Shown here: piece after piece, positions 29,135 to 45,507 of the stretch
Layout: the number at the start of each line of letters is the position of its first letter
How positions within the stretch are numbered: position 1 is the stretch's first letter
Source: Thermoprotei archaeon
Lineage (GTDB): Archaea; Thermoproteota; Methanomethylicia; Nezhaarchaeales; B40-G2
DNA: 53,334 nt
Reading direction: 5' to 3'
NCBI GenBank assembly: GCA_003649615.1
Contig: QMSI01000003.1
Coordinates: forward strand, 1-53,334
Notes under the pieces: generated by a model
What the model saw: the letters and a program-made list of their open reading frames with translations, nothing else
What the model was told of the DNA's origin: nothing
Database searches by the model: none
Translations under genes and position numbers: made by a program

Positions 29135-29857
29135 CTACCGTAGGTCCTTAGTCCCTAGCAACTCTAAAGCAACCTTAAAGGTCTCAGCCGCCTCCTCTCT
29201 TGAAGCAACCCCAATAGCAACAGAGGAAAACTCGGGATGACTTAAAACAAACTCCAGAGCCTCCCTAGGACTTAATGTTCCTGCTGCGAGCGTCTTCATA
29301 GCCATCGCGGGCTTCCCCACCTTCCTTAACAGGTTGAGGAGGGACCCGGGGTTTATGTCCATGAAGAAGCCTAGTTTGTTGAAGGGTACTATGAGAAAAT
29401 CCACCTCTAAGTCCTCTTCTAGTAACCAGGGTAGGACGATTCCTGGACTATGAACAGCCATGCCAGCATAGCATCCCGCTTCCTTAATCCTATCAATTAA
29501 ATCCCTGATCGCCTCCACGTTAAGTGAATCGCTGGTTTCACCGTGGATGGCTATACCCTCGGCTCCAAGCTTCGTGAAGAGGTCAAAGCCCTTCTCAGGG
29601 TTTGAAGGAGAAAGTGAACCCCATACTTTTAGTTTAAGTCCTTGCCGCATTAGCAATGATATAGCCTCATAAATATGCTTAAAGGGTAAGGCCTGAACGG
29701 CTTCGACCCCCTGAAGATAAGCTTCCTCAAGGACCTCCTTGACGTTCCACGGTTTGCCATAGAACTTTTCATAGTAAAGGGAGGCCCTAGAACCGAATTG
29801 CCCAGCACCTATGAAAGGGCTGGTGCCGACGAGGATAGAGGGTAGTCGCATATCCAC
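29135..29857 (-). CDS. Aldo/keto-reductase-like TIM-barrel protein
   Basis: A 240-residue protein. The opening LVGTSPFIGAGQFG and the ending blocks MKTLAAGTLSPREALEFVLS plus SVAIGVASREEAAETF resemble the C-terminal cofactor region of aldo/keto reductases. The AKR catalytic tetrad (D-Y-K-H) cannot be followed clearly, so enzymatic activity is uncertain. It begins 1 base after the platform gene of the pilus operon, on the same strand, hence may be its last transcribed gene. Confidence 0.6.
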   Translation of the reverse strand: MDMRLPSILVGTSPFIGAGQFGSRASLYYEKFYGKPWNVKEVLEEAYLQGVEAVQALPFKHIYEAISLLMRQGLKLKVWGSLSPSNPEKGFDLFTKLGAEGIAIHGETSDSLNVEAIRDLIDRIKEAGCYAGMAVHSPGIVLPWLLEEDLEVDFLIVPFNKLGFFMDINPGSLLNLLRKVGKPAMAMKTLAAGTLSPREALEFVLSHPEFSSVAIGVASREEAAETFKVALELLGTKDLR

Positions 29858-31516
29858 CTATATGAGGAGAGGAGTTACCTTGATAGAGATTGCGGCTGAG
29901 GAAAGACAGATAAGAGGATGCTTAAAACTAAGGAAGGTTAAATCAGATACCTTGGCTACTATCACGCCTATAATAAAGGAGGAAACCACTATGGTGACCA
30001 TTATGGATGACAAGACTTGGGAAAAGAGTTGATAGCCAGCGAAGAAGGAGGCTAGTTGTGGAGAGGTTATAGCCGAGGAAAACTGCTCTCCTAGAGATTT
30101 TAGTAGAAGCATGCCCATCACCATGAAAGCTGGAGCCCCATAACCTATGTAGGCCTGAAGCTTTACACCAGACTTTCCAGCTACCTTAGCACCATAATAA
30201 TCACCAATATAATTCGCAAGTGTCTCCAATACTACTGGACTACCTCCACCGCTTTCTGCTACTTGCTCTATAATGAGTAGGGTTACTCTAGTGGTCCATG
30301 AAGGGGTCTTAACTGACAACACCGCCTCTTTAAATGAAGCTCCATAACTGAGAGCACGTCTTATCTGTGAAAGTAAATGGTCGAAGTGTTGATTATAGCG
30401 CCTATAACTTAACCTAACCACCGCTTCCTTTACATCGAAACCTAGCTTCCTATGCTCAGTCACGTCTCTAAGAAAATCAGGAAGAACCTTCTCAGCTTGA
30501 TTGCAGGCTCTAAGCCGCTTAGTTGAAGCATAAGCCAATGGGAAGGACAATACCATTAGGGAGAGTAGGAGGGCTTCATAGAGTTCAAGCCTTAGTAAGG
30601 TAAGGGAAGGAATCAGAGAACAGGTTCCCATTATGAGGGAGGGAGGTATCCATGGCTCTAAGTCGTATCGATCAAAAGTTTTAGGTTGACTGAGGTGAAC
30701 AAAGAGAGATGCCAGCAGGGCTGAAGATGGAACTACCAAGAAATTGTATAAATCACTTAGCCATAAGCTAACTTCTCCTACGAAGACAAGTGCCATTAAG
30801 GAGAGTGCCATAGGAGTTAAAAGGAATAATGCCAGTATGGCTTCGCCAAGGACGTTGGTGGTGTTGGCATACCCCATCCACTTACGTTCCACCGATCTTA
30901 GAAAATCCTTGGCTTTGGATGCTAGATAAGAAGCTACGTCACCTCCACTCCTCAGTACACTACTATACCCCAATATCCATAACCTAAAAATCTCAGAGGG
31001 GTGATTTCGAGCTACCTCCTCTAAAGCTTCAAGCGGGCTTCTATTGAAGTATAGAGAGTTCCGCCTGATCAGCATAGCTTCCTTGGAGATGGCCGGAAAG
31101 AGCTTCGTCTCAGAGACCGTGTCGAAGGATCGGATTAGCGAAAGCCCTGAAACCGACATAACTGAGGCTAACACACTGAATAGAGGTAGTTCAGCCTCTA
31201 TAGCTGCCTTACGTTCTAGGGAAGCCACCTTAGGAGCATAGATACCAGCAAGAAGTATCATGAGAGGAGAGAGTATGATTAAGAAAAAAAGTGGGTTCTT
31301 AAAGAAGCCATAAAGCACGAGGCTGATAAGGACAGTTATGAAGGTTAAAGTTAAAACCACCTTAATTAACTTTAAGGAGTATGCTCTAGGTCCTATGAAC
31401 CACAGCGTTTTCGAAAGATCCTGTTCTACGCGGCTGGCAATGAGGTTAGCGAGTTTGATCAAGCGGGGATTAGATTTCACCCCTGTCAATCCCTTGAGCT
31501 TAGCCCCTAAATGCAC
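29858..31516 (-). CDS. Type IV pilus platform protein with two T2SSF-type domains (FlaJ/TadC-like)
   Basis: A 552-residue membrane protein. Hydrophobic helices occur near residues 52-95 and 215-275, then again near 300-330, and 455-475 with a C-terminal pair at 495-525. Two cytoplasmic GspF-type blocks with the pattern (GGDVASYLASKA, then GGGSPVVLETLANYIGDYYG) mark repeated F domains. It anchors the secretion ATPase and drives pilin insertion. It starts 1 base from the ATPase gene, the usual ATPase-platform pairing of archaeal type IV pili. Confidence 0.88.
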   Translation of the reverse strand: MHLGAKLKGLTGVKSNPRLIKLANLIASRVEQDLSKTLWFIGPRAYSLKLIKVVLTLTFITVLISLVLYGFFKNPLFFLIILSPLMILLAGIYAPKVASLERKAAIEAELPLFSVLASVMSVSGLSLIRSFDTVSETKLFPAISKEAMLIRRNSLYFNRSPLEALEEVARNHPSEIFRLWILGYSSVLRSGGDVASYLASKAKDFLRSVERKWMGYANTTNVLGEAILALFLLTPMALSLMALVFVGEVSLWLSDLYNFLVVPSSALLASLFVHLSQPKTFDRYDLEPWIPPSLIMGTCSLIPSLTLLRLELYEALLLSLMVLSFPLAYASTKRLRACNQAEKVLPDFLRDVTEHRKLGFDVKEAVVRLSYRRYNQHFDHLLSQIRRALSYGASFKEAVLSVKTPSWTTRVTLLIIEQVAESGGGSPVVLETLANYIGDYYGAKVAGKSGVKLQAYIGYGAPAFMVMGMLLLKSLGEQFSSAITSPQLASFFAGYQLFSQVLSSIMVTIVVSSFIIGVIVAKVSDLTFLSFKHPLICLSSAAISIKVTPLLI

Positions 31517-31517
31517 G

Positions 31518-33110
31518 TTAAGCCCACCTCGTATAGAAACCCCTAAGCTCGGTTACTACTTCATTGAATGATGTTATCCCCCTCCTGACGAGGTCTTTGA
31601 GGAACTTCTCTCGTTCACTAAGTTCCTTTTTGAGCTGTGACAAGCTCCATCCTGAGAGGTTAGCTATCCTCGATAGGACTATGCTTTTTTCAACTAGTTC
31701 CTCAGCGGTTAAAGGTACATGAACATCGAGATGAGGCTCCCAAACGAAAATAGGCCTACACTCCTTGGAGCTTAAAACCTCAGAAACCTCGACAACTCTC
31801 CTAACAGGTTTACCTCCAAGTGGTGTAAGTCTCTTGATTATGGCGACATTGCTTATTAAAGGTATGAAAGACTCACTTACATTTATGGGAGGTGAGGTTA
31901 ATCTCTGCACCATGGTTTGGAAGCTTTCACCATGGAAGGTACAGGCACATCCATGTCCTGAAGCAGCTGCTTGAACCAGTGCGTATGCTTCCTCTCCTCT
32001 TACCTCCCCCACTATGATGAAATCGGCCCTTTCCCTCAAACTCAACTTAACGAGGTCGAAGAGCTTAATCTCAGTTCTCGACTCACCGAAGGTGTAGGTA
32101 TGTCTGGCAACAAGAGGTTTCCACCCTATATGGGGAAGGCGGAGTTCAGGGTTATCCTCTATTGAGACTACTTTCCAATTAGGCTTAAGCAGCGTGGCGA
32201 GAGCATTAAGAAGAGTCGTCTTTCCGCTAGCCATTGGCCCCACTATCATTAAAAACATTTTATGCTCTAGGAGGAGCCACCAGTAAGCCGACATTAGTGG
32301 AGAGATCGTTCTCCACTTTATCAGGTCGCAGATGGTTAACGGTTCTTCCCTAAATTTCCTTATAGTAATAGAGGAGCCGAAGGGAGTGATTTCACGAGAG
32401 TAGGTGACCGATATTCTATGGTTTTCAGGTAGGGCTGCATCGACGATAGGGAAAGCCGTGCTTACATGCTTGCCTGAAAAGTGTACAAGCTTGACCACAA
32501 AGTGGTCCATGAACTGTTCGTCGTCAAACCTCAAGTTAGTTATTAACCAGTCTAGGTCATTGAAATCTCGGTGAAACACTCTAACAGGTTTCTTTACACC
32601 TTCGATTGAGATATCTTCTATTTTGGGGTCTTCCATTAAAGGAGTTAGAGGACCATATCTTAACGTATCCCTCCTTATGTAGTACAAGATCTTTTCTCTA
32701 ACTTCTCCTGTTATGATATCTAAACCGTATTCTTCAGCAACCTTATCTATGTATGATTCAAGGTATCCTGCTGGGTCTTCATCCATCTGCGAAGAGGGTT
32801 TAACAGTAGTTTTAAGTGCCTTCATTAAGGCAACGTAATATAATAAGTCGCTGTAGCTCAGTTTTGGTTCCTCTATTAAATAGTAACCTGTCCCTTCTTT
32901 GACTCCAATAGTTACCTTAACCTTACTATCGCTGAGTTGGTAACACTCCACAACTTGTAAGTTTCTCAGATACTCGTTGTCGATGGTGCAGAAAATTAGA
33001 GGCGACTGCTCAAACATTATTGGAACATGAAGAGGGTTCTTCTCCTTTTTCTTGATGATCTTGCTAACGAGCTTTAACGCCTTAGAAACCATGTAAAGCA
33101 CCCATCCCAT
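31518..33110 (-). CDS. Type II/IV secretion ATPase (FlaI/GspE/VirB11-like)
   Basis: A 530-residue hexameric assembly ATPase. Residues 1-150 form a variable N-terminal region. The core has MIVGPMASGKTTLLNALATL (Walker A), then the Asp box VSIEDNPELRLP, Walker B-type DFIIVGEVRGEEAYALVQAA and the His box GHGCACTFHGES. The C-terminal 70 residues are helical. The protein is longer than FlaI of most archaella. It stands beside its platform protein and pilins, which supports pilus assembly rather than DNA transfer. Confidence 0.93.
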   Translation of the reverse strand: MGWVLYMVSKALKLVSKIIKKKEKNPLHVPIMFEQSPLIFCTIDNEYLRNLQVVECYQLSDSKVKVTIGVKEGTGYYLIEEPKLSYSDLLYYVALMKALKTTVKPSSQMDEDPAGYLESYIDKVAEEYGLDIITGEVREKILYYIRRDTLRYGPLTPLMEDPKIEDISIEGVKKPVRVFHRDFNDLDWLITNLRFDDEQFMDHFVVKLVHFSGKHVSTAFPIVDAALPENHRISVTYSREITPFGSSITIRKFREEPLTICDLIKWRTISPLMSAYWWLLLEHKMFLMIVGPMASGKTTLLNALATLLKPNWKVVSIEDNPELRLPHIGWKPLVARHTYTFGESRTEIKLFDLVKLSLRERADFIIVGEVRGEEAYALVQAAASGHGCACTFHGESFQTMVQRLTSPPINVSESFIPLISNVAIIKRLTPLGGKPVRRVVEVSEVLSSKECRPIFVWEPHLDVHVPLTAEELVEKSIVLSRIANLSGWSLSQLKKELSEREKFLKDLVRRGITSFNEVVTELRGFYTRWA

Positions 33111-35738
33111 CTAAAGATTTACTTGGTAGACGTCGCCTCCGCTAATCCACACCAGGCCAGTTTGACAAAGAACATTATCTCCATCCTTAACCACGATGTA
33201 ACCCTGAAAACTGGAAGGGCCAAGACCATTTAGTGTAACGAACGCTTCATCGCTGTCAGGGGGGCATACGGCATTGGCTAGTAAATACCACGATTCATTA
33301 TACACCTCTACTTTCAAGTTGGCTTTTAAACCCTTAACGAGTATTACATCCTCGCCATAAATGGTTAAGCTGTAATTATAAGGATCGTACATGAAGCAGA
33401 CTGAGGCTCTCAATGGTGCTGAGCCTGAACTGAAAAGCTGCAGGAAGATGAAGTTGGTTTCTCCTTTTGCAAAGCATGGAGTTGCTTCTACGTCTATGAG
33501 GACAGGTTCAGTATCATCTTCAGCTACGTCTTCCTCATATACTGTCCTCCAGCCAAGCGACTGGCTATAAACCTGAATCCTCTTAGTCAACCGCCCAACT
33601 TTAGTAGGGTCAAGAGCCTGAGTGTCTGAAAGTTTCACTCTTATTCGTATCGGTGCAGGATAATCTTCAGGCACATACACCCCTTCATATATACCTCCCC
33701 ATCCTGAGACCGGTTCATCAGAATCGAAACTAATAGTATACCGACGCAGAGACGGTTCGAAAGAAGCCTCAAAGCCCTCGCCAGTAGATAACCATCTCCA
33801 TTCGGTGTTAAAGGTGTAATGTAGCAGAAGTCCTTCGGACCTCTTTACTATGGTTACCTCCCCAACATTAAGTATTAAGTAAGCTGCATCTCTTGTACCA
33901 TCTTCTCCTACTGCAACTATTGGCAAGATAAAGCTTTGACCTGTATTGGCCGTAGCATTAGCTTGAATGAATATTCTGGAAGTGAAAGGTGGAGAACCTG
34001 TTGAAGATTCAAGCGCTACATTTATGCCTTGAGGTAAGCTTAAAACTTCCAGCTCAATATTACTTGAGTAACCTTCATAGGGAGCAACCTCAACTGTTAA
34101 CTCCTTGGGAAAACCATCCCTAGCTACAGTGATTTGTTCTTGGCTTAAAGTTACCTCGAAGCCAGGAGAATTTTCGCCTATACCAGTGTAAAGTAAGCCT
34201 TCATCAGTACCTAATACCAATAAGGAGCCATGCTCATTAACGTCAAAGACATGTACCATCCCGTACTCTGACTCGACTCTCGTGTATAGAGTACCGTCAG
34301 GTTGATAGATGGGAAGAATGTTTGTTTCGCCTAATTTACCGCTAGGCCATATAGCATAAACTCTACCTTTAACATCGACCTTAACCGGATATAGGGGTAT
34401 GAAAGAGTATATACTGTAGTACCAAGAGTTGCCTTCGTAACGCGGAGAAGTATCCCAGATTAGGTTTCCTTCATAGTCATAGACCATACACCTCGTGTAG
34501 TAATAGGAGACATAATAGTAAGCATCTATGTAAATCACGCTAGCTGCTATTCTATTTCCTTCGCACTTCAACCAGAACACGTAGCTGTTTGATGGTAGCT
34601 CTATGGTTTTCAGTTCTCTTAAGTTTAAATCGTATATGCCTATTAAAGAGCTTCCAACGACGACTCTACCGTACTCTACGTCAAGGTCAACTGCACATAT
34701 TCCTGAAAGCCAAGCTATATCGACAGCTCTTAAAACCGACCCTTCCTTCAGAAGCATGAGGTGGCCACTTCCTGAGGTGGAGACGTAAACTATGGCTGTT
34801 AGATCGTTGTCCGTGGATGCAAAGACCTCACCATTAAATCCTAAGGTTATGGCCTGCGATGTACCATCTTCATTGAATACATATAGTTCACCGTTACATG
34901 TCAGATAATATATCGTTACTCGGTCACCCTTTTCTATACTTAAGAAACTTCCACTAGCAGGTAAAGGTAGTATAGATGACCAGTAAGTCTCGCCTTCCCT
35001 AACCCAGTAAATCTTAGCGTGTTCGTCGCCTTTAATGGTGAGGAGAACCACGTTGTTTTCATCGACGACCTCAACCCGGCGAGCGATGTATCCGTCTTCG
35101 ATCTCGTAGCTAAATACAGCTTCACCGTCTCTTCTTAAGAGGTGTAACGTCGTTTCATCCGCGAAGGCAATAAATCTACCTGTGTCGTCCACATCTGCGC
35201 ATCTAACAGCTCCTGAGGAGGACTGTCTAAAGCCTGTGAAGGGATATGTAGGAGGAGAACCTACTGATGTTCCAACGGTTCTCCTTTCTAAAAGTGTTTG
35301 GTAAGCCTCGAAAACGTTTCCTCTACTGGTTATTACTTTCACGCTCAGTTGAGAGTCTGCCCTCAACTTAGGATAAGGGCCTAGAGTAGTATTAAGTCCA
35401 GGTCCGAGAGTGTTATTCGTCAGTTTTATTACCGTTACATTTAAACCACCATAGTTTATGACTACGTACGACAATTCAACAGGAATAGGTGCTCTGCTTT
35501 TAACATTCAATAATATATCTTGACCTAAATCCTCGAAACTTACCTCTAAATCTTCTCTTATTCTTTCCGCTTCTTCTTCGTGATAGACCTTTAAGGCATT
35601 GAAGTATTCTTGCTGCTCCCTTTGAATGGTAAGTAAGGAGTATATCATGGACATGAAAAGCAGCATTAGTATTAGCCCTCCAATAATACTGCTAATCCCA
35701 CGTACTTGACGGCGCCTTGACCTCATACCTGAAAACAC
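33111..35738 (-). CDS. Giant pilin-headed beta-propeller/Ig-like surface protein
   Basis: An 875-residue protein. The N-terminus has the class III prepilin form: RRRQVRG (8-14) followed by ISSIIGGLILMLLFMSMIYS, then a helical stretch (40-70). Residues about 165-530 show recurrent four-strand units with aspartate turns (such as CADVDDTGRFIAFAD), like a beta propeller. About 540-640 is an Ig/NEW3-like domain (TVEVAPYEGYSS). Residues 650-790 look like a beta-sandwich. It may be a tip adhesin or sensor of the pilus. The start codon overlaps the upstream pilin by 47 bases; the prepilin signal requires at least 35 of them. Confidence 0.75.
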   Translation of the reverse strand: MFSGMRSRRRQVRGISSIIGGLILMLLFMSMIYSLLTIQREQQEYFNALKVYHEEEAERIREDLEVSFEDLGQDILLNVKSRAPIPVELSYVVINYGGLNVTVIKLTNNTLGPGLNTTLGPYPKLRADSQLSVKVITSRGNVFEAYQTLLERRTVGTSVGSPPTYPFTGFRQSSSGAVRCADVDDTGRFIAFADETTLHLLRRDGEAVFSYEIEDGYIARRVEVVDENNVVLLTIKGDEHAKIYWVREGETYWSSILPLPASGSFLSIEKGDRVTIYYLTCNGELYVFNEDGTSQAITLGFNGEVFASTDNDLTAIVYVSTSGSGHLMLLKEGSVLRAVDIAWLSGICAVDLDVEYGRVVVGSSLIGIYDLNLRELKTIELPSNSYVFWLKCEGNRIAASVIYIDAYYYVSYYYTRCMVYDYEGNLIWDTSPRYEGNSWYYSIYSFIPLYPVKVDVKGRVYAIWPSGKLGETNILPIYQPDGTLYTRVESEYGMVHVFDVNEHGSLLVLGTDEGLLYTGIGENSPGFEVTLSQEQITVARDGFPKELTVEVAPYEGYSSNIELEVLSLPQGINVALESSTGSPPFTSRIFIQANATANTGQSFILPIVAVGEDGTRDAAYLILNVGEVTIVKRSEGLLLHYTFNTEWRWLSTGEGFEASFEPSLRRYTISFDSDEPVSGWGGIYEGVYVPEDYPAPIRIRVKLSDTQALDPTKVGRLTKRIQVYSQSLGWRTVYEEDVAEDDTEPVLIDVEATPCFAKGETNFIFLQLFSSGSAPLRASVCFMYDPYNYSLTIYGEDVILVKGLKANLKVEVYNESWYLLANAVCPPDSDEAFVTLNGLGPSSFQGYIVVKDGDNVLCQTGLVWISGGDVYQVNL

Positions 35739-36141
35739 CTCCGCTAGAGGATCTCAACACGAAAACGTAGCATGAGCCCTCTGTCCATGGAAACTCGAGG
35801 TGTAAAGGCTGGACTTCGTAGGGTTCAATAACTAAGTGAGGGTTAAGCTGGAATCTATACCCTCCTACGAGAACCTCAACAAGTTCGCACCTCACCTTAC
35901 CATTATTAAAGACCCAAAGAGTAACGCCATCATTAAAACAGGCATCGATTACACAGAACTTCTCCATTAAACTCCTCTGCTCAGCTTCAAGTTGACTAAT
36001 GAAAACTGAGGTCGTAGATCGAGAACGGCCAAGATAGTTGCTCGCCACGAGGGACATGAACACTATGGTTATGAGGGTCAAAGTAAGAGCGCCAACAACT
36101 TCAGATACGCCCTTACGGTGTAAAAGAAGCCTTATGTTCAT
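35692..36141 (-). CDS. Pilin-like protein 3 (class III signal peptide)
   Basis: A 149-residue protein. LLLHRKG precedes a hydrophobic helix VSEVVGALTLTLITIVFMSL, so a PibD-type peptidase would cut after the Gly. The rest is a short helix (33-60) and a beta-rich head with cysteines (CVIDACF and others, three at 60-100) that may be disulfide-bonded. It overlaps the propeller gene by 47 bases. It belongs to the pilus operon, third from the promoter. Confidence 0.8.
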   Translation of the reverse strand: MNIRLLLHRKGVSEVVGALTLTLITIVFMSLVASNYLGRSRSTTSVFISQLEAEQRSLMEKFCVIDACFNDGVTLWVFNNGKVRCELVEVLVGGYRFQLNPHLVIEPYEVQPLHLEFPWTEGSCYVFVLRSSSGGVFRYEVKAPSSTWD

Positions 36142-36146
36142 TTAGA

Positions 36147-36617
36147 TCACCCTTGACAGACGACCGTTATGGAGTATGAAACCAGCTCTTCCCCGCTCTT
36201 GACATATACCCTAACAAGGTAACTGCTACCTAACTCAAAGTCATTGGGATTTAAGACGCAGCCGTGGGTTAGTAGATCAGCCTCCGTTACAGTGATAGTT
36301 CCTCCAGGGGAGAGGTTTATGTTGAACGGTTGGGTCACGTAGTAGACCTTGTTAGAGGTATGCACGGTGATGTTATACAGCTGACATGGTACGCTGCCAG
36401 TATTCCTAACAGTAATAGACAGGTAGATGTGGTCATTCAACTTGATGAGAGCGGCATCAGTGATAGAGATCCCTACGACACGAGAGGTAGATGAAACATA
36501 GGATGTCATGTATAAGCTTACAAAGCCACCTAAAGCTAGAGCTACGCCAACCATTAATAAAACCGAAACTATAGGTGAGACTCCTCTTAGAGTAAAAATA
36601 AAGGATTGACGAGTCAC
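36147..36617 (-). CDS. Pilin-like protein 2 (class III signal peptide)
   Basis: A 156-residue protein. FTLRG is followed by VSPIVSVLLMVGVALALGGF, the archaeal pilin N-terminal motif used by the secretion machinery. The mature part is a beta-rich domain with NTGSVPCQLYNITV and potential N-glycosylation sequons (NIT, NLS). It lies 5 bases from the third pilin gene and 7 from the first. Size is typical of minor archaeal pilins. Confidence 0.82.
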   Translation of the reverse strand: MTRQSFIFTLRGVSPIVSVLLMVGVALALGGFVSLYMTSYVSSTSRVVGISITDAALIKLNDHIYLSITVRNTGSVPCQLYNITVHTSNKVYYVTQPFNINLSPGGTITVTEADLLTHGCVLNPNDFELGSSYLVRVYVKSGEELVSYSITVVCQG

Positions 36618-36624
36618 GAAGTCT

Positions 36625-37053
36625 TCACCCGCTCACACAATAAGTGGTGGAGGAGAAATTGCCTACATCTGTCTTGACTAATATAGTATAGCTCTTGCCA
36701 GCTATGAAGGTCATGTCGGGCACATCGTCTTCCGTGAAAGACAAGGATAGGGTACTGCCTGCATTGAGCGCAGCATTAACGTCGACTATGTGGTTACCAT
36801 GTTCATGGAATACTAGAAGTTTCTCCACCATTATAGGGGTAGCTCCTATATTTCTCAAGATAACTTGGAGTGAGCTGCCTGATGAACTATTGGTGGCCGT
36901 TGCGTCGATAACCAAGGAGACTGTTTGCGTGGAGGTCTTAGTGTAACTTACGGTGTACCAGTAGGCGAAGGAGCCTAACGATATCGCAACAGCCACCATG
37001 ATAAGTGTAGCTATCACAGGAGATACTGCTCTTCGTTTTTCACACCGCTGCAT
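36625..37053 (-). CDS. Pilin-like protein 1, first gene of the pilus operon
   Basis: A 142-residue protein. The signal KRRA is followed by VSPVIATLIMVAVAISLGSF, again the class III prepilin form. The mature part is rich in Thr and Ser, has NSS and NFS sequons and the motif LRNIGATPIMVEKLLVF found in archaeal pilin-like domains. A likely promoter (37088-37095) lies upstream. I infer it is the major pilin because it is first in the operon, but this is not shown. Confidence 0.82.
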   Translation of the reverse strand: MQRCEKRRAVSPVIATLIMVAVAISLGSFAYWYTVSYTKTSTQTVSLVIDATATNSSSGSSLQVILRNIGATPIMVEKLLVFHEHGNHIVDVNAALNAGSTLSLSFTEDDVPDMTFIAGKSYTILVKTDVGNFSSTTYCVSG

Positions 37054-37087: not shown

Positions 37088-37095
37088 CCTTTTAA
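37088..37095 (-). promoter_or_regulatory. Likely promoter of the pilus operon
   Basis: The minus strand reads TTAAAAGG, embedded in GGGATTAAAAGGCTTTTTTG. It lies 35 bases upstream of the ATG of the first pilin gene. It is the best TATA-like site in the 93-base spacer. A GGTGATG just upstream of the ATG would serve as SD. Confidence 0.45.
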
Positions 37096-38301: not shown

Positions 38302-39423
38302 TTAGGGATGAGGAAGTAAGGCTTCTTCCTCAATCATATAAGCATCATAGCTAGCGAGGAGCTCGGCGATCTTAAGGTTTGAAGCCATATAGTCACTTAC
38401 AGTTATATTACCCTCTACTATAACCGAGTCCGTGAATAAAGCGGAGCCAATGATATGGTCTGAGGGTTTAGAGGCCTTCAAATATAGAGATCCATTAATC
38501 CCCACCAGAGACAGCCCTTCAAAGTAAGTAAAATCGATAGGTAGCCAACCCCATGGTGGAACATAAGACATAGCCCAGCCATGTCTACCCATCCCGTACA
38601 TAATGTGTCTATACCTTGAATCAAAATATTCACTAAAGGACATAGAACCTGGTTCATATATGGCGCCATACTGCAGATAGCTCGGTATTCCCACGCATCG
38701 ACATAGAGTTATGAAGAGATTAGCCCTATCATCACAATCTCCTTCGCGCTCCACATATGTCTGGTTAGGATACCATACTATGTGTTCGGTATCTTCACGC
38801 TCAGAAGGGTACTTGATATTATCGTCAATCCATGTTAGGAAGTTATATATTACATTTAACACCCTTTCATCGCCGCTCAAGGAAGAAGCTAAGCGGCTTA
38901 ATTCAGGGTCTTGAGTATTCCATAGATCTGTGGAGTTACAGAACTTTTCTTTGAGCTCAGCTGGAATATCGTCAAGGAGCTGGGACTCTTCAGGGATTAG
39001 AGGGGTGGTTAAGTTCATAATTGTTGTTTGAAGATTAATGGACAGTTCAAGGTATACTCTTAGACAAGACCTAGGGGGAAGGAACGCAGGTGCCCCTGTC
39101 AGGTTCAATATTGTGTTACCTTCTGGGCTTTTTTGGAAGCTATAACCGTTAAGTTCATCTCCGTTAAGGTAATAACTTACACGTTCAACTAAAACACGCT
39201 GTCGAGAACTATTAGGGAAGATGGTAATCAAGGTTAAGCCTTCTAGGGGCATAGGCTGCGTGCCGTTGTTGATCAACGTAACGTTTAATTTATAAAGAAA
39301 AGTAGATGCTTCATGGCTTGTAGGAGGGGCGCGCAGGAGTAAAAGAGCTGTTAGAGAGAATACAGTGATTAAAATTAAAAGAAGCAGGCGCACGACGAAG
39401 GGTCTCGAATACCTACCAATCAT
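38302..39423 (-). CDS. Membrane-anchored transglutaminase-like protein
   Basis: A 373-residue protein. A membrane anchor spans about residues 11-30 (LLLLILITVFSLTALLLL). The extracytoplasmic part has a beta-rich domain (35-135), then a transglutaminase-like core with Cys230 (GDCDDRA), His281 (RHGWAM) and Asp297 (LPIDFTY), the classical triad in order. The family includes peptidases, cyclases and transamidases, so the reaction is unknown. Many N-x-T/S sites suggest surface glycosylation. Its position between a nitroreductase and a transporter gives no clear clue. Confidence 0.85.
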   Translation of the reverse strand: MIGRYSRPFVVRLLLLILITVFSLTALLLLRAPPTSHEASTFLYKLNVTLINNGTQPMPLEGLTLITIFPNSSRQRVLVERVSYYLNGDELNGYSFQKSPEGNTILNLTGAPAFLPPRSCLRVYLELSINLQTTIMNLTTPLIPEESQLLDDIPAELKEKFCNSTDLWNTQDPELSRLASSLSGDERVLNVIYNFLTWIDDNIKYPSEREDTEHIVWYPNQTYVEREGDCDDRANLFITLCRCVGIPSYLQYGAIYEPGSMSFSEYFDSRYRHIMYGMGRHGWAMSYVPPWGWLPIDFTYFEGLSLVGINGSLYLKASKPSDHIIGSALFTDSVIVEGNITVSDYMASNLKIAELLASYDAYMIEEEALLPHP

Positions 39424-42066: not shown

Positions 42067-43728
42067 TTAATCAAACTCCGACTTTTCTCCTTCTTCCTCT
42101 CCACCGGTCTTGCTGGGCGTTTCGCTTGCCTTAGTCTCAGTCTTAGCTGCAGCTATGATGTCGTCTATTCTTAGTATCATAGAGGCTGCTTCGGTAGCTG
42201 ATTTAATAGCCATACCCTTAACATTCTGAGGCTCTATAACACCCAAGCCATACATGTCAGCTGGTTTACCAGAGAACACGTCTACGCCTATGGTCTCATT
42301 ACCTGCTTTTTCGTGAAGCGCTCTTAGCTCCATTATCATGTCAAGCGGGTCCAAGCCTGCATTCTCAGCCAGCGTTTTAGGAATAATCTCTAAGGCATTA
42401 GCAAACGCTTCAATAGCTAGTTGTTCCTTACCTCCAACGGTAGGTGCAAATTCACGAAGCCTTCTCGCTAACTCCATCTCAATCGATCCACCGCCAGTCA
42501 CAATCTTACCACATTCGATGGCATCGGACACTGTCGACAGAGCATCGGTTAAAGCTCGTTCAGCCTCGTCGATAAACTTCTCTAGGCCACCCCTTATTAA
42601 TATGGCTACAGCTCTTGGATTCTTACAACCCTCCACGAAAATCATCTTCTCATCAGCAATCTTACGCTCCTCCACCAGCTCAGCCTCACCAAGATCACTG
42701 GGCGAAAGATCCTCGATGTTAGTTACTATTCTGCCTCCAGTAGCTCTTGCCAGTTTCTCCATGTCCGACTTCTTGACTCTCCTAGCCGCTAGGATACCTT
42801 CTTTAGCTAAGAAGTGTTGAGCCACGTCATCTATGCCTTTCTGGCAAAACACTACGTTGGCGCCAGAAGCCTTAATCTTATCCACCATGTTCTTTAACAT
42901 GCGCTCTTCTTCCTCTAGGAAAGCTTTCATTTGTTCAGGGCTCGAGATTCTGATCTCCGCATCCATCTCTGTCTTTTCTATTTCGAGTGGACAGTCCAGA
43001 AGGGCGATCTTGGCCTTCTCGACCTTCCTGGGCATGCCGGAGTGGACCACTTCCTTGTCGATAATGACGCCGTTGATCAACTTGGATTCGGCTAAGCTGG
43101 CACCTTGACGCTTGATCAGCTGTATGTAATCAGTGTCGGCAATTACCTTATCATCTCGCTTCTCCGCGACCTGCATGACTGCCTTGACAGCCATGTCAGC
43201 TAGCATTTCCTTAGAGCCCGCCACGGTCTTAGCCGCCATGGATGTCATGGCTATCTTACGCAAGGTCTCCTTGTCATCCATAGACACAGGCTTGGCCAGC
43301 TCATCCAACACCTTGTTACAGAAGTCTAGGGCTTTACTGTATCCGCTTATGATCACGGTGGGATGTATGTTTTTAGCCATCAACTCTTCAGCTTTCTTTA
43401 ACAACTCTCCTGCAAGAACCACGCTAGTAGTGGTGCCGTCGCCGACTTCATCGTCCTGGGCTTTAGCTACCTCCACCATCATCTTAGCAGCTGGATGCTG
43501 AACCTCTATTTCATCGAGTATTGTAGCACCATCATTAGTAACAGTTACGTCTCCTAGGCTATCGACCAGCATCTTATCCATGCCTCGAGGGCCTAACGTC
43601 GATCTAACGGCCTCCGCTATGGCTTTAGCCGCGGCAATGTTAGCCCGCTGCGCTTCCCTCCCCACGGTTCTAGTAGAGCCTTCCTTTAAGATGAGGACAG
43701 GTACTCCACCTAGCTGAGCAATCGCCAT
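42067..43728 (-). CDS. thsA: Thermosome subunit (group II chaperonin) A
   Basis: A 553-residue group II chaperonin (from ATG 43728, with the SD AGGGGTGG upstream; an in-frame GTG at 43758 is less likely). ATP-site motifs are [27 protein letters not shown] and GDGTTS. The lid and apical domain contain the protrusion [20 protein letters not shown]. The C-terminal tail is charged (EEGEKSEFD), with no GGM repeats. Subunits form two stacked rings, probably with the second paralogue. Confidence 0.97.
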
Positions 43729-43755
43729 AGAACCACCCCTTGTTTTCAGAGGGCA

Positions 43756-43773
43756 CAATAAGTCGCTTCTATA
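43756..43773 (-). promoter_or_regulatory. Promoter element of thermosome A
   Basis: The minus strand reads TATAGAAGCGACTTATTG, preceded by AAAAATATA. It lies 28 bases upstream of the ATG at 43728. The same block with a one-base insertion is found upstream of thermosome B. Confidence 0.65.
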
Positions 43774-43875
43774 TATATTTTTCTACATGAAAAAGAGGTC
43801 TTCTACCTCTTCCTCTAAGTACTTGGATGAAGGACATTTTGAGAATATGTGGACGGGAAAAATTATGTTGATATC

Positions 43876-45507
43876 TTAAAATTCGCTAAACCTAGGGCCT
43901 CCCTCTTTCTTTTCCTTCTCCTCTTTCTTTAGAGCAGAAGCAGCGATAACGTCGTCTATCTTCAGTATCATTAATGCAGCCTCTGTCGCGGATTTAACTA
44001 CCTGCTTCTTTACAAGCGTCGGTTCAATGACGTTGAGTTCATACATATCAGCGACCTTGCCCTCTTTTACATTAATTCCTGCGCTGAAAAACCCTTTTTC
44101 ATGTTCAGCCCTCAGCTTGACCATGATGTCTATAGGGTCTAGGCCTGAGTTCTCAGCTAATATGCTGGGTATGGCTTCTAGGGCCTCAGCGAACTTCAAT
44201 GCCGCCAGTTGTTCACGTCCAGCTAGCGACCTAGCCCAATCCTTCAATCTAAGCGCTAACTCTACTTCAACAGCTCCTCCTCCAGCAACTATCTTAGGTT
44301 CTTGGACTACGTTTCGGACTACGCAGAGAGCGTCATGCATTGAGCGCTCAGCTTCTTTGATCATCATATCGCTGCTGCCTCTGACAAGGATGGACAAGGC
44401 TCTTGGATTCTTACAACCCTCCACGAAAATCATCTTCTCATCAGCAATCTTACGCTCCTCCACCAGCTCAGCCTCACCAAGATCACTGGGCTTAAGGTCA
44501 TCTATGCTAGTCACTGTTCTACCACCTGTAGCCTTAGCTAGCTTCTCCATGTCAGAGTGCTTGATCCTCCTAGCTGCCAAGATACCCTTCTTGGCTAGGA
44601 AATGTTGAGCTGCATCATCGATACCCTTCTCACATAACACTACGTTAGCGCCGACTGAAGCTATCTTATCTACCATGTTCTTGAGCATCTTTATCTCTTC
44701 ATCTAGGAAGGCTTTCATTTGTTCAGGGCTGGTTATCCTGATCTTAGCGGTCATCTCTGTCTTTTCTATTTCGAGTGGACATTCTAGGAGGGCGATCTTG
44801 GCCTTCTCGACCCTCTTAGGCATGCCTGGATGAACAACTTCCTTGTCGATGACTAAACCTCTTATTAGCTGGGTTTCAGTTAGCGATTCTCCTCGCTTCT
44901 TCTCCACTTTTACATCGTCAACGTCGACCACATACTTGCCGTCTACCTCCCTCGCTACCTGGAGAACTGCTTCAACGCTAAGCTCAGCAAGTAATTCTTT
45001 AGCTGAAGCTACCGCGGCTTTCCCTGAGAGCGTAGTCAGGGCGCACTTCTTCAATATTTCTTTATCAAGAGGGTTAACCGGCTTAGAGATTTCGTCGAGA
45101 AGTTCTAGAGCCTTGTTCATGGCCTTCCTATAACCGTCCATTATGACAGTAGCATGGACATCTTGCTCGAGAAGCTCCTCCGCATTCTTCAATAGCTCAC
45201 CTGTTAAGACCACAGCAGTAGTGGTGCCGTCGCCGACCTCGCTGTCCTGGGCTTTAGCTACCTCCACCATCATCTTAGCAGCTGGATGCTGAATATCCAT
45301 CTCCTTGAGTATGGTAGCACCATCGTTAGTTATAGTCACGTCGCCAAAACTGCTTACGAGCATCTTATCCATACCCATGGGACCGAGCGAGGACTTAACG
45401 GCCTCTGCTATTACCTTAACAGCCATGATGTTAGCTCTCTGCGCGTCTCTGCCAACCGTTCTGGATGTGCCTTCTTTTAGTAGAAGTACAGGTACTGCCT
45501 GCGACAT
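43876..45507 (-). CDS. thsB: Thermosome subunit (group II chaperonin) B
   Basis: A 543-residue paralogue of the neighbouring subunit. It carries [33 protein letters not shown] and [20 protein letters not shown]. The tail is GGPRFSEF. A stretch at 44399-44491 is identical, base for base, to 42611-42703 in the other gene, evidence of gene conversion. An SD (AGAGGTG) and a shared promoter block precede the ATG. It has its own promoter; the spacer between the two genes is about 117 bases. Confidence 0.97.

Follow-up and report, generated by a model that had tools for sequence, protein, structure and literature searches.

A prepilin-headed beta-propeller protein as a probable modular minor pilin in a pilus operon of Nezhaarchaeales

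The pilus operon described here encodes, directly before its secretion ATPase, an 875-aa protein that combines a complete pilin with a bulky C-terminal cargo. In the reading we favor, this protein is a modular minor pilin, and probably a tip adhesin, of a filament that resembles a type IV pilus and belongs to the Ups/Bas superclade. The operon lies in a stretch of 53,334 nucleotides (hereafter referred to as the window), which is contig C3 of a 1.58-Mb genome bin (94% complete, 6% contaminated) from a member of Nezhaarchaeales, class Methanomethylicia.

Operon organization and conservation

The six consecutive pilus genes of the original prediction were all recovered as ORFs on the minus strand between positions 29858 and 37053, with lengths of 552, 530, 875, 149, 156 and 142 aa from the platform gene to the first pilin gene. 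They are tightly packed, with intergenic gaps of 7, 5, -47, 0 and 1 nt in the direction of transcription, and encode three small class III prepilins, the large prepilin-headed protein, a secretion ATPase and a platform protein. The features are as follows.

37089..37095 (-), TATA-box-like element TTAAAAG, ~39 nt upstream of the first pilin start
36625..37053 (-), small class III prepilin 1, 142 aa (TIGR02537, 32.8 bits, cut-off 20)
36147..36617 (-), small class III prepilin 2, 156 aa (TIGR02537, 26.3 bits, cut-off 20)
35692..36141 (-), small class III prepilin 3, 149 aa, overlapping the start of the large pilin
33111..35738 (-), putative modular prepilin, 875-aa ORF
35295..35738 (-), complete pilin module, residues 1-148 (leader RG/ISS, hydrophobic helix, small beta domain ending ITSRGNVF)
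34149..35246 (-), predicted beta-propeller, PQQ/WD-like, residues ~165-530 (PF13570, PDB, Foldseek)
33855..34172 (-), Ig-like domain, weakly supported, residues ~523-628 (tblastn, Pfam)
33114..33821 (-), C-terminal domain, residues ~640-875 (conserved in genome G001, all-beta in a low-confidence model)
31518..33110 (-), secretion ATPase, UpsE/BasE-like, on its own branch (PF00437, E 2e-29; tree)
29858..31516 (-), platform protein, UpsF/BasF-like, with two T2SSF domains (PF00482, E 5e-17)

Two of the three small prepilins pass the TIGR02537 cut-off for a class III N-terminus, and matches to Pilin_N, UpsA or UpsB are weak: prepilins 1 and 2 are UpsA-like (46.7 bits, NCBIfam cut-off 130, and 35.6 bits, respectively), and prepilin 3 matches UpsB (26.3 bits, cut-off 70) and Pilin_N (20.1 bits, under the cut-off). 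Counterparts of prepilin 2 are present in genomes G001 and G002 and in family f3. For the large protein, an internal ATG at 35726 is the more likely start, giving 871 aa and a 10-residue leader. The TTAAAAG element was found at a similar spacing in six of the seven operons compared (those of the window, G001 and four members of the single family f3); no counterpart was seen in the seventh, that of G002.

The operon has transglutaminase-like, nitroreductase, prefoldin-like and ligase genes as neighbors in the window, G001 and G002. The transglutaminase-like protein (38302-39423, minus strand), kept beside the operon in all three, has an N-terminal hydrophobic segment. Immediately downstream of the platform gene lies a 240-aa gene (29135-29857, minus strand) whose product weakly resembles a TIM-barrel protein (ribulose-phosphate epimerase); it also follows the platform gene in G001, and not in G002 or f3. 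Two thermosome (TCP-1/cpn60) genes stand side by side at 42067-45507 (minus strand).

The operon ATPase was detected (E < 1e-120) in eight of the nine Nezhaarchaeales species examined, the genome of the ninth being 67% complete. In all eight operons, the gene directly before the ATPase encodes a large prepilin-headed protein, so the arrangement is not due to chance, and the linkage with the ATPase and platform on which the original prediction depended is conserved. The large proteins of families f1 and f2 have 875, 850 and 874 residues; those of f3 are shorter (553-571 aa). A PibD/FlaK-type peptidase is also encoded in the genome.

Pilin module and cargo of the large protein

The 875-aa protein begins, as predicted, with a prepilin N-terminus: a class III site (RG/ISS) and, behind it, a hydrophobic helix. 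A class III motif was found in seven of the eight orthologs. Homology between f1 and f3 covers residues 1-146 (hhalign E 1e-6; hmmsearch E 1e-8 to 2e-4); beyond residue 146, the large proteins of these two families do not align. With a profile HMM of the module, we identified pilins of 147-170 aa immediately upstream of the ATPase in Methanomethylicales (E 1e-10 to 1e-15). The corresponding slot of Thermoproteota S9B1_HD70 holds a matching protein of 405 aa (E 2e-16), and a pilin of 125 aa in the G116 bas operon matched weakly (E 3e-5). In alignment A6, residues 1-148 align end to end with the 147-170-aa same-slot pilins, which stop ~12 residues past the ITSRGN.F strand, at the point at which the large proteins run on into their cargo. 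Judged by sequence homology, residues 1-148 make up an entire pilin whose short orthologs occupy the same slot, a point missed by the original prediction. That the short pilins terminate where the cargo begins is direct evidence that cargo was grafted onto the pilin at its C-terminus. In two Methanomethylicales operons, the second pilin, not the last, is enlarged (L061:5059-6243, 394 aa; L049:3988-5724, a 578-aa ORF in Methanomethylicus).

The hydrophobic helix might alternatively serve only as an anchor, holding a single S-layer surface protein in the membrane without any filament. The protein has this one helix, no further membrane segment having been seen, and archaea do place class III signals on non-pilin surface proteins (PMC4187195). 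We nonetheless consider an anchor-only role improbable, because the whole pilin beta domain is retained, homologous to the short same-slot pilins, and because the gene shares its operon with an assembly machine in all eight cases.

Residues 165-535 match Pfam PF13570 (E 3e-5, under the curated cut-off), and all 10 PDB sequence matches to the propeller region are propellers (best E 4e-4), most of them designed repeat proteins. A single-sequence model of the window protein had a mean pLDDT of 40 (57-77 over residues 181-300), and its Foldseek matches, which carry little weight at this confidence, were dominated by propellers. In the three-sequence model of a 554-aa ortholog (pLDDT 58), a helix (residues 10-53) leads into a small beta domain, and residues 164-553 form about eight units of four strands each; the best 50 Foldseek matches of this model were dominated by WD40-type and designed propellers, with TMt values of 0.53-0.56 for the eight-bladed Tako8 and Cake8. 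The identification of the cargo as a beta-propeller is thus supported by sequence matches for the window protein and by the modeled fold for the 554-aa ortholog, and the models place propeller-type strands behind a pilin helix, in agreement with the original prediction. For the proteins of G001 and G002, propellers are assumed, and none of the tools applied showed one in either. Blade repeats were weak on self-comparison of the window protein (five of 300 shuffles reached its score) and were not detected in most orthologs, so the propeller assignment does not rest on this test. Profile searches of the PDB with alignments A1 and A2 gave no significant match, a protein query with the large gene found no relative in genome contigs and phages, and the large protein revealed neither a binding motif nor a ligand-specific family.

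For the Ig-like and C-terminal sandwich domains of the original prediction, the evidence is weak: weak matches for the first and a low-confidence all-beta model for the second. The tblastn matches in other proteins of the class are confined to the Ig-like stretch (E ~1e-5; Pfam Ig 0.17). The C-terminal domain had no Pfam or PDB match.

Identity between the window and G001 differs along the operon and its flank: 80% for the ligase, 71% for the ATPase, 50% for the platform, 37-54% for the small pilins, 32% for the pilin module, 27% for the C-terminal third (z 17.5) and 21% for the propeller region, the last of these little above shuffles (z 2.1). At a similar distance in f3 (ligase 83%), the whole large protein is 49% identical. 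By this measure, no part of the operon changes faster than the propeller region in f1, the family of the window protein. Rapid change or replacement in f1 fits what would be expected of an exposed binding surface, without proving one.

Relationship of the assembly machine to Ups, Bas and the archaellum

In the ATPase tree, the window ATPase groups with those of its order (96/95) and class (97/98). It adjoins the clade of UpsE and BasE (100/99) but lies outside it, and is far from a FlaI-like ATPase encoded on contig C105 of the same bin. The ATPase is, in this tree, a branch of its own, sister to Ups/Bas and belonging to neither; passages of Makarova et al. (PMC4858521) treat Ups and the bindosome as one subclade, 4I.

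The operon resembles that of the Ups pili of Sulfolobales in having an ATPase and platform of the same superclade and UpsA/UpsB-like pilins. However, the Ups gene order is X-E-F-A-B, whereas here the pilins come first and UpsX is missing. The window proteins score below every Ups cut-off (UpsF, 241 bits against 400, in addition to the UpsA and UpsB values given above), and the ATPase falls outside the UpsE branch. Gene order, cut-offs and tree are all against membership of Ups, which we reject. UpsX, encoded upstream of UpsE, was considered as a same-position homolog of the large protein and also rejected: it is a predicted cytoplasmic protein (PMC3892339), and three copies had no pilin N-terminus and no propeller, Pfam or PDB match. 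These features of UpsX, together with the absence of a signaling domain from the 875-aa protein, make it very unlikely that the large protein is a mechanical or chemical sensor pilin, the second option of the original prediction, for which no evidence emerged, or acts in Ups-like DNA handling. The latter role is suggested by the relationship to the Ups branch, as Ups pili function in the aggregation of cells and in DNA exchange (PMC3892339).

The similarity to Bas, the bindosome assembly system, is closer in gene order: three small pilins, the ATPase and the platform follow one another as in L104, bar the added large pilin. Large pilin-headed proteins are, moreover, known Bas clients (PMC4187195). 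The operon could then specify a short envelope-embedded assembly that anchors and displays such proteins to capture nutrients or polymers, in the way that Bas presents sugar-binding proteins in Sulfolobales. The gene order, equal to that of the G116 bas operon and unlike that of ups, and the weak match of the module to the 125-aa pilin of that operon point in this direction. Several observations nevertheless leave this as a minority possibility: the ATPase lies outside the BasE branch, the operon has no transporter genes, and the cargo, encoded inside the operon, is a propeller rather than a transporter-type binding protein. The three matches to two substrate-binding protein families in this incomplete genome all have Sec-type N-termini, as judged by eye. 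The BasE and BasF models scored under their cut-offs in the window (314 against 1000 bits and 205 against 1300 bits, respectively).

The original prediction had also argued for a separate pilus from the lack of archaellum genes. This lack holds for the window, in which neither an archaellin nor a FlaI-type ATPase is encoded, in the operon or elsewhere. It does not hold for the genome bin: an archaellin (202 aa; 109 bits against 29.5) and FlaF/G/H-like genes lie on contig C76 (L109), and FlaH/I/J-like genes on C105 (L110). The Fla names, other than those of the archaellin, ATPase and platform, were assigned by eye, and, with 6% contamination of the bin, it is not certain that these genes belong to the same organism. 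The argument from absence thus does not stand for the genome; the conclusion that this pilus type is distinct from the archaellum is upheld by the separate branching of the window and C105 ATPases. Beside another pilus ATPase and platform of the bin lies a protein of 1427 aa (L060:674-4957) that combines a Sec-like N-terminus with a carboxypeptidase-regulatory-like domain.

A modular minor pilin and its slot in Thermoproteota

In the favored reading, that of a modular minor pilin, the operon would build a type IV pilus-like filament, and a beta-propeller and further all-beta domains would have been grafted onto the C-terminus of a complete pilin. PibD would cleave the 875-aa protein, and the ATPase and platform would insert its helix as they would that of any pilin. 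We propose that, because the cargo is bulky, the large pilin would be placed at the pilus tip or incorporated in few copies; a propeller at the tip might bind a surface, a polymer or a partner cell.

The tip position is suggested by analogy with bacterial systems. Bacterial modular type IV pilins (PilB and PilC of Streptococcus sanguinis, CofB; PMC8179133) likewise have an N-terminal pilin followed by a bulky C-terminal module that is not pilus-specific. The window protein displays the same elements: a class III signal and helix, a complete N-terminal pilin and a C-terminal module whose propeller matches are not pilus-specific. The bacterial proteins are assembled with the pilin machine and presumed to be exposed at the tip (PMC8179133), as predicted here. 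They differ in cargo, which is vWA or lectin in the bacterial proteins and a propeller with all-beta domains here, and in that the protein described here has an archaeal class III pilin and an Ups/Bas-type machine. The PilY1/PilC tip adhesin (IPR008707) is also a beta-propeller proposed for display at the pilus tip, but PilY1 is carried by minor pilins without being a pilin itself, whereas here propeller and pilin form one protein; no PilY1/PilC match was present in the window among Pfam families listed up to E 1. Passages of PMC4858521 present archaeal type IV pilus loci in which large surface or adhesin proteins are predicted beside the ATPase, including DUF2341 proteins compared to PilY adhesins, and those passages do not describe a pilin-headed propeller or a pre-ATPase slot.

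The module profile retrieved many proteins of 300-1700 aa from 398 genomes of the phylum. In five inspected loci, the gene for the large protein immediately precedes that for the ATPase (L120, 405 aa; L121, 1162 aa; L124, 1239 aa; L125, 859 aa; L129, 952 aa). Others, such as those of L117, L119 and L122, lie at other places near pilus genes. Cargo domains near pilus loci include a laminin-G-like, lectin-like domain (L117), DUF2341 with a weak KIB1-4 propeller match (E 4e-5) in a prepilin-headed protein (L129:3392-6250), and a weak Kelch match (E 3e-5) in another (L131:5482-8160). Further prepilin-headed proteins lie near pilin genes: one of 2504 aa with ~16 SdrD B-like repeats in a Methanomethylicia genome (L134:5377-12891), and two with no family beyond the pilin N-terminus (L030:631-3729, 1032 aa; L036:23-4507, 1494 aa).

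We tentatively suggest, with somewhat less than even confidence, that Thermoproteota pilus loci have a fixed pre-ATPase slot whose pilin can accept cargo, grafting having occurred repeatedly at one and the same pilin end; the slot would thereby set what the tip binds, as a counterpart of the bacterial modular tip pilins. In this scheme, the slot would hold no cargo in Methanomethylicales, propellers in Nezhaarchaeales and, elsewhere, other large domains within prepilin-headed proteins as long as 1239 aa. The modular-pilin principle itself is known; what is probably new is an archaeal, propeller-bearing form, of predicted function, on a Bas-like gene order.

Little is known about surface and partner recognition by uncultured archaea, and archaeal pilus tips are uncharacterized in the literature surveyed. 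The family libraries searched mostly have no model for such proteins, which gene order alone could reveal. A conserved pilin with exchangeable cargo is a concrete, testable candidate for the tip of an archaeal pilus and, if this proves true, the bacterial modular-pilin principle would extend to archaea.
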